From NCBI GenBank assembly GCA_902592345.1, contig CACJEE010000004.1, forward strand, positions 1 through 64,000: DNA of 64,000 bases. Reading direction: 5' to 3'. The notes beneath the pieces were generated by a model that had not been told where the DNA came from, searched no databases, and worked only from the letters and a program-made list of their open reading frames with translations. This DNA comes from an uncultured Alphaproteobacteria bacterium (lineage in GTDB: Bacteria; Pseudomonadota; Alphaproteobacteria; HIMB59; GCA-002718135). A program made the translations under genes and the position numbers. Shown here in pieces: positions 32,340 to 34,294 of this stretch (position 1 is the first letter of the stretch; every line of letters starts with the position of its first letter).

Positions 32340-33290
32340 ATGATGTCACTAGATAATAATATTAAAGCTATTTTTTTGATTATATTAGGCATGTTTGTTT
32401 TTTCAATTCAAGATACATTGATTAAATTAATGTCTGATCATATAAATATTTATGTAATTTATATAGTAAGATCTATAGTTGGAATTTTAGTTATTTTTAC
32501 TTATTGTTGGATCTATAAAATTCAACTAATTTTCAAAACTTATTATCCTTTTATTACTATTTTGAGGGTATCCATATTTTTTCTTGGTTTTAGCTTGTAT
32601 TATTTTTCTTTATCAAAAATTTCTTTACCTGAAGCAGTGACTTTATTTTTTATTAGCCCTTTTTTTGTAACTATAAGTTCAAAATTTATTATGGGTGAAA
32701 ATATTGGCATGTATAGATGGAGTGCAATTTTAATCGGTTTTATTGGAGTGTACTTAGTTCTAGATCCAAATTTTAATGATTTTAATATTTATACTCTATT
32801 CCCAATCTTTTGTGCTTTTTTCTACGCAGTAACAGTTGTAATTCAGAAAAAAACATCTGATAAAGACTCTCTATTTACACAAATATTACACACTTATTTA
32901 TCAGCTATTGCTTTTTCAATTATAATTTATTTTTATGTAAATAATTTAACATTTACTCCGTATCAATTGTTAGAATATAAATTTGTGCTTATGAGCTGGA
33001 ATATTCCTAGTTTAAATTATTTTTTATTACTAATAATTATTGGTTTTACTGCAGTAATTGGATTTTTTTCCATTTTTGGCGCCTATCGGATAGGATCACC
33101 TGCAACCATTGCTCCTTATGAATATAGTTTGATAATTTGGTCAATATTATTTGGTTATTTAATATGGAATGATTATTTAACAATAAAAGGTATGGCAGGT
33201 CTTTCATTAATATTAATTGCTAGTTTTTTTACTTTATATAGAGAATATCATCTAAGTATTAAAGTTAGTACAGATAAACCAATAAGATAA
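32340..33290 (+). CDS. EamA/DMT-family transporter
   Basis: 10-TM pattern with two EamA repeats (LGMFVFSIQDTLIKLMSDHINIYVIYIVRSIVGI). Confidence 0.85.
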   Translation: MMSLDNNIKAIFLIILGMFVFSIQDTLIKLMSDHINIYVIYIVRSIVGILVIFTYCWIYKIQLIFKTYYPFITILRVSIFFLGFSLYYFSLSKISLPEAVTLFFISPFFVTISSKFIMGENIGMYRWSAILIGFIGVYLVLDPNFNDFNIYTLFPIFCAFFYAVTVVIQKKTSDKDSLFTQILHTYLSAIAFSIIIYFYVNNLTFTPYQLLEYKFVLMSWNIPSLNYFLLLIIIGFTAVIGFFSIFGAYRIGSPATIAPYEYSLIIWSILFGYLIWNDYLTIKGMAGLSLILIASFFTLYREYHLSIKVSTDKPIR

Positions 33291-33389
33291 CTTTAAACAG
33301 CTTATCAACAAACATATGCACAGTAAAATTAATATTTTATCTTTTTTATTTGATAATCGATATTTCTAGAGTTAAATTATAAATACTTA

Positions 33390-33499
33390 TTACACGCAAA
33401 GGTAGTAAGCAAATTAAATAAAGGAAACTTTATTTAGTTTGTATCGGGAGGAAATGCACGATACATGAAAAAGACCTAGCTTGCTGGGTCTTTTTTTTT
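33390..33499 (+). ncRNA. Candidate structured small RNA or leader RNA ending in an intrinsic terminator
   Basis: Hairpin 1: 33409-33423 pairs with 33428-33442 (15 bp including G-U pairs) capped by GAAA. Hairpin 2: GTATCG/CGATAC enclosing GGAGGAAATGCA. Terminator hairpin AGACCTAG-CTTG-CTGGGTCT plus T9. The 5' end is estimated. Confidence 0.7.
33468..33499 (+). terminator. Rho-independent terminator of the candidate RNA
   Basis: AAAAAGACCTAGCTTGCTGGGTCTTTTTTTTT: 8-bp core stem extended by A-T pairs, CTTG loop, T9 tail. Confidence 0.9.
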
Positions 33500-33534
33500 G
33501 CCTAAAACTCACTATTTATTATAAGAGTTAATCA

Positions 33535-34116
33535 ATGGACTTTAAAAAATATAATAAAATTTTAGATATTTTTTTAAACGATCTTATACCAGAAACTAAA
33601 ATCTCTGTTTCTAAAGGAAATAAAATATTTGGGGCCTTTGTATTAAATAAAATTGATTTAAGTTTAGTCGTTACAGGTGTAAATAACGAAATAGAGAATC
33701 CAATATATCATGGAGAGATTTCTACTATAATAAATTTTTTTAAATTAAGAAATTTAAATCCAAAAGATTATTTATTTATTTCCTCTCATGAACCTTGCTC
33801 TTTATGTTTGTCTGCAATCACTTGGAGTGGTTTCGATAACTTCTATTATTTATTCCATTATGAAGAAACTGAATCTAATTTTAATATTCCATATGATCTG
33901 AAAATTTTAAAAGAAGTCTTTAAGATTGATAAAGGTGCATATTCAAAAAATAACACTTTCTGGCAAAGTTACTCAATTATAGAAGAAATTAAAAAACTAC
34001 AAAATGCAGAAAACGATAAATTATTAGCAAAAATCAAAGAAATTAATAAACTTTATGAGGATATATCAAATAATTATCAATCAGCAAAAAATTCAAACCA
34101 TATTCCTCTAAAATAA
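33535..34116 (+). CDS. cytidine/deoxycytidylate deaminase-fold protein
   Basis: 193 aa; zinc-site HGE (YHGEISTI) and PCSLC (SSHEPCSLCLSAITWSG). Confidence 0.8.
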   Translation: MDFKKYNKILDIFLNDLIPETKISVSKGNKIFGAFVLNKIDLSLVVTGVNNEIENPIYHGEISTIINFFKLRNLNPKDYLFISSHEPCSLCLSAITWSGFDNFYYLFHYEETESNFNIPYDLKILKEVFKIDKGAYSKNNTFWQSYSIIEEIKKLQNAENDKLLAKIKEINKLYEDISNNYQSAKNSNHIPLK

Positions 34117-34149
34117 TTGAAAATATATAACAATAGTATAAATTATTAT

Positions 34150-34294
34150 TAACGGGAGATACTGTAATTTTACAGAGCCGAAGGAGCAACGACCCGGAAA
34201 CTCTCAGGCAAAAAGGACCGTTAGAATAAAAAATCTGGAAAAGAGATTAATCTCTACCGAAGGAGTAAAAACTCTCAGGTAAATATACAGAGAG
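34150..34294 (+). promoter_or_regulatory. Tandem glycine riboswitch upstream of gcvT
   Basis: Two aptamer copies: GGGAGATAC..AGAGCCGAAGGAGCAA..CCCGGAAACTCTCAGGCAAAAAGGACCGTTA (34150-34223), then TCTGG..TCTACCGAAGGAGTAAAAACTCTCAGGTAAATATACAGAGA (34232-34294). Located directly before gcvTHP. Confidence 0.96.

Follow-up and report, generated by a model that had tools for sequence, protein, structure and literature searches.

Organization of the locus

The 64,000-nucleotide stretch of DNA analyzed here (the window) has a 244-nt gap, 33291-33534, between an EamA transporter gene and a cytidine-deaminase-like gene, and within this gap lies a compact structured RNA element that is preceded by putative promoter elements and followed by an intrinsic terminator (Table 1). 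A glycine riboswitch aptamer is found farther downstream, between the deaminase gene and gcvT.

Table 1. Features of the IMES-4 locus (positions in the window)
Feature	Position	Strand	Evidence or remarks
EamA transporter gene	32340-33290		Pfam PF00892
-35 element TTGATA	33350-33355	+	TTGAT kept in most of 19 upstream-sequence clusters
-10 element TAAATT	33373-33378	+	17-nt spacer from -35 element
Predicted sRNA (about 114 nt), comprising IMES-4 and the terminator	33385-33499	+	Fold, conserved promoter and terminator
IMES-4 RNA (RF02037)	33386-33465	+	cmscan
Hairpin 1, UUAUUAC-ACGCAAAG-GUAGUAA, loop ACGCAAAG	33386-33409	+	97.7% of cells paired; 4/8 pairs changed on both sides
Hairpin 2, AU-rich, GAAA tetraloop closed by G-C	33411-33440	+	12/13 pairs changed on both sides
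Hairpin 3, GUAUCG..CGAUAC, 12-nt loop GGAGGAAAUGCA	33441-33464	+	100% paired; GC to AU and UA to AU changes
Intrinsic terminator, AGACCUAG-CUUG-CUGGGUCU plus T9	33470-33499	+	96.6% paired; 6/10 pairs changed on both sides
Cytidine-deaminase-like gene	33535-34116		Pfam PF00383
Glycine riboswitch aptamer (RF00504)	34143-34230	+	64 bits; one aptamer over cut-off

In Rfam 15 the only match above its gathering score in the gap is IMES-4, which scores 103 bits (cut-off 48, E 3e-16), and all other matches there score far under their cut-offs. The alignment covers the full model (1-80 of 80) with no non-standard or broken pairs, and the window RNA has the same helices and the same three consecutive hairpins, with loops ACGCAAAG, GAAA, and GGAGGAAAUGCA. 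A sequence-only reading of this DNA had not recognized the family and had proposed an Rfam search as a check; that search shows the element to be real but described. Judged by this match, the RNA at 33386-33465 is IMES-4, a marine bacterial family that was already catalogued, and not a new one. The motif was reportedly described by Weinberg et al. in 2009 from marine metagenomes. Our literature search found no paper naming IMES-4 or RF02037. The Rfam model ends short of the terminator, and the present analysis adds the promoter, the terminator, the host family, the gene neighborhood, and a tandem duplication.

The promoter elements noted earlier, TTGATA and TAAATT separated by 17 nt, are indeed present and conserved in homologs. 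Both the TTGAT box and the -10 box TA..TT (T, A, T, and T in 16, 18, 16, and 16 of the 19 clusters, respectively) keep a fixed distance from hairpin 1, and the spacer is variable; TTGATA is also among the listed promoter-like sites, which are common in this AT-rich stretch. From this conserved pair of elements, transcription is predicted to start at about 33385, at the base of hairpin 1, giving an RNA of about 114 nt. The three consecutive hairpins of the sequence-only reading, which correspond to hairpins 2 and 3 and the terminator, are all there; the additional hairpin upstream of them had been overlooked, and it moves the start of the element to about 33385. The terminator with its T9 tract, likewise noted earlier, is plain in the sequence and its hairpin (helix 4) covaries. 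A simple terminator scan listed nothing at 33470-33499, which we read as a putative miss due to the stem running into the T tract.

Conservation of the fold

The minimum free energy of 33385-33499 (115 nt) is -40.3 kcal/mol, compared with a mean of -17.6 for shuffled sequences (z -7.9), and none of 200 shuffles was as stable. In an alignment of 44 distinct homologs, 94.2% of the cells pair and 24 of the 37 pairs have changed on both sides. Not one of 500 shuffles attained the covariation score of 0.261 (0.134 in shuffles), and slid controls gave at most 0.090. The relatives thus show strong covariation, the kind of evidence that the sequence-only reading had asked for.

The stem sequences drift while two of the loops stay nearly fixed. 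The hairpin 3 loop is identical in 44 of 44 homologs (motif GGGAGGAAAUGCACG), and the other motif, CACGCAAAGG, is found in nearly all of them, with one deviating homolog (L075). The loop 3 motif served as the seed of the contig scan, so part of the invariance of loop 3 comes from how the sample was drawn; the Rfam-model search of relatives was not so seeded, and all of its fetched matches (L001-L028) carry the motif.

Hairpin 2 had been described as a 15-bp stem closed by the pair 33409-33442. Its inner 13 bp belong to the conserved helix, but the outermost pair is broken in 34 of the 43 homologs that have letters on both sides and forms in nine. The next pair, 33410-33441, is kept in 40 of 44, with C-G replaced by U-A four times, and its competitor in hairpin 3, 33441-33464, forms in all 44. 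The proposed competition between the two hairpins at 33441-33442 would therefore, on this alignment, be at most a junction that slides by a single base pair.

A free-standing small RNA gene

The sequence-only reading had offered two possibilities, a free sRNA of ~105 nt or an attenuator or leader of the downstream deaminase gene. That the RNA ends in a terminator, and that the deaminase is the usual next gene in homologous loci, would fit a cis-acting leader; the upstream neighbor is AnmK in most of these loci and EamA in others. However, linkage to a regulated deaminase does not hold across relatives. Loci L020, L026, and L094 have tandem IMES-4 copies and no deaminase ORF, with gcvT as the next gene (its glycine riboswitch is seen in L094), and in L070, L077, and L099 an opposite-strand gene, in L070 and L099 encoding a PBP-like solute-binding protein, stands between IMES-4 and the deaminase gene. 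In the consensus fold, too, the terminator arms showed no alternative pairing. Since IMES-4 persists without the deaminase gene, or with an opposite-strand gene in between, we consider it a stand-alone sRNA, and a leader function is very improbable. The other possibility fares well: promoter and terminator are the RNA's own, its fold covaries, and it is retained where the downstream gene is missing; the predicted length is ~114 nt. We put the probability that this is IMES-4 and a free-standing small non-coding RNA gene at roughly 0.9.

The tandem copies are 218 nt apart, with no adjoining deaminase, in L020/L027/L094 and in L026/L028. In L026 the two IMES-4 bodies are nearly identical and their promoters differ, as after gene conversion; in L020 the two bodies differ. 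In L097, with IMES-4 at 727-806, there is no downstream deaminase ORF of 70 aa or more and the spacing to gcvT is that of deaminase-bearing loci; the deaminase gene may be broken there.

Might the element instead be a small mRNA? The hairpin 3 loop has an SD-like GGAGG shortly before an AUG at 33454, from which a tiny peptide, MHDT, could be translated in the window. The SD-AUG spacing is only 2 nt, however, and the frame, which stops after MHDT in the window and some homologs, runs on without a stop as far as the RNA extends in many others. Thus, of the SD-like loop followed by tiny ORFs that had been pointed out, the loop is invariant and the ORFs are not conserved. The alignment does not support a conserved peptide from this AUG, and a peptide-coding role is hardly credible.

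Distribution

IMES-4 is present once in its own genome. In a sample of 61 genomes of relatives it occurs in 26, all from the genus of the window, and it was not found in the sister-family genomes of that sample. Across the window's family it was found in 78 of 110 genomes, in all six genera, and in every one of the 10 near-complete genomes (at least 90% complete). A class-wide sample of 386 genomes had it in its own genus only. When a custom model was run on 14 sister-family genomes, scores were at chance level (at most 18.4 bits), and the region with the best of these had no IMES-4 loop motif.

The named records from the contig scan are mostly AG-type alphaproteobacterial genomes; MarineAlpha5 bins and records carrying the label Pelagibacteraceae or SAR11 are also among them. 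Pattern matches in a Streptomyces (L038) and a gammaproteobacterial (L056) sequence were rejected, as the rest of the RNA is missing. No viral contig had the exact loop 3 pattern.

RNA-binding proteins and other small RNAs

Proteins that commonly partner with small RNAs were sought in the order to which this genome belongs. Hfq (PF17209) was found in 0 of 41 genomes and ProQ (PF04352) in 0 of 61, where the genome carrying the window is 76% complete and ten relatives of at least 90% completeness, all from the sister family, were negative too; CsrA (PF02599) was found in 0 of 61, with three control genomes positive. This group may lack the usual sRNA-binding proteins.

Three well-known kinds of small RNA were considered. 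IMES-4 resembles the CsrA-sequestering RNAs of the CsrB/RsmZ type in being short, in having GGA-containing loops, and in ending in a terminator, but those RNAs sequester CsrA, and we discarded a CsrA sponge because no CsrA turned up in the 61 genomes. The bacterial small SRP RNA (RF00169) is likewise a small structured RNA with a purine-rich GGA-containing hairpin; the same genome encodes it separately (G000:C3:14765-14861), and this identity was rejected for IMES-4. 6S RNA is a single long bulged hairpin. IMES-4 has no such hairpin, and a search of 61 genomes from the order gave no canonical 6S RNA (RF00013), with controls including Caulobacter positive, so this assignment was also rejected.

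Possible partners and mode of action

The anatomy of the element, a terminated sRNA with invariant single-stranded loops as expected of a fixed seed, is compatible with a base-pairing sRNA, in which loop 1 or loop 3 would pair with the ribosome-binding regions of mRNAs and regulate them without a known chaperone. When loops 1 and 3 were tested against 740 gene starts shared by orthology between two genomes, however, conserved pairing was no better than that of shuffled loops; the test used two genomes, one of them partial, simple ORF starts, and mononucleotide-shuffled loops with no accessibility term, so that weak pairing or pairing with few targets would escape it. Its top match for the terminator loop was the deaminase gene's own upstream region, which contains the terminator of this RNA. 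In its own genome, single-mismatch complements of loop 3 are situated within coding sequence of either strand and not at gene starts. Together with the failure to find Hfq and ProQ, these results make antisense regulation unlikely. Among the intergenic sequences of both genomes, the loop 1 complement (CCTTTGCG) occurs only at IMES-4 itself. Overall, neither mRNAs nor rRNA gave any antisense partner above shuffles, and none common to intergenic regions was seen.

The ribosome is another conceivable partner. The GGGAGG of loop 3, exposed and invariant, could form six pairs, one of them G-U, with the anti-Shine-Dalgarno CCUCCU of 16S rRNA, whose canonical 3' end is present in both genomes, and IMES-4 might in this way titrate or mark free 30S subunits. 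Yet AGGAGG would pair better and the G is nonetheless invariant, the remainder of the invariant loop and the whole of loop 1 would be left unaccounted for, and the rRNA complementarity of loops 1 and 3 is not above that of shuffles. Such a decoy strikes us as quite improbable.

With drifting stems, fixed loops, and no antisense partner found, protein binding would be the likeliest step. We propose that the three drifting stems would act as a scaffold, holding out two invariant loops rich in purines, ACGCAAAG and GGAGGAAAUGCA, for a partner that is a protein or a ribonucleoprotein, and that the RNA would work by binding or sequestering this partner and not by pairing with mRNAs. We favor this proposal tentatively, at a little short of even odds. 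A wider reading, in which IMES-4 would be a core RNA that binds a protein or the ribosome independently of a chaperone, is confined to a single family of streamlined marine alphaproteobacteria, and has a function outside the described RNA families, is possible and somewhat doubtful.

For a known family, the present analysis contributes the architecture of the gene and the range of its hosts, and it excludes the readings as a leader or a peptide gene. An unexplained catalogue entry becomes a defined sRNA gene, from promoter to terminator, that occurs in every near-complete genome of one marine alphaproteobacterial family. Searches of the sister family did not turn it up, and the group gave no matches to Hfq, ProQ, or CsrA. 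With a deaminase leader and a tiny peptide set aside, the function of IMES-4 can now be tested in relatives.
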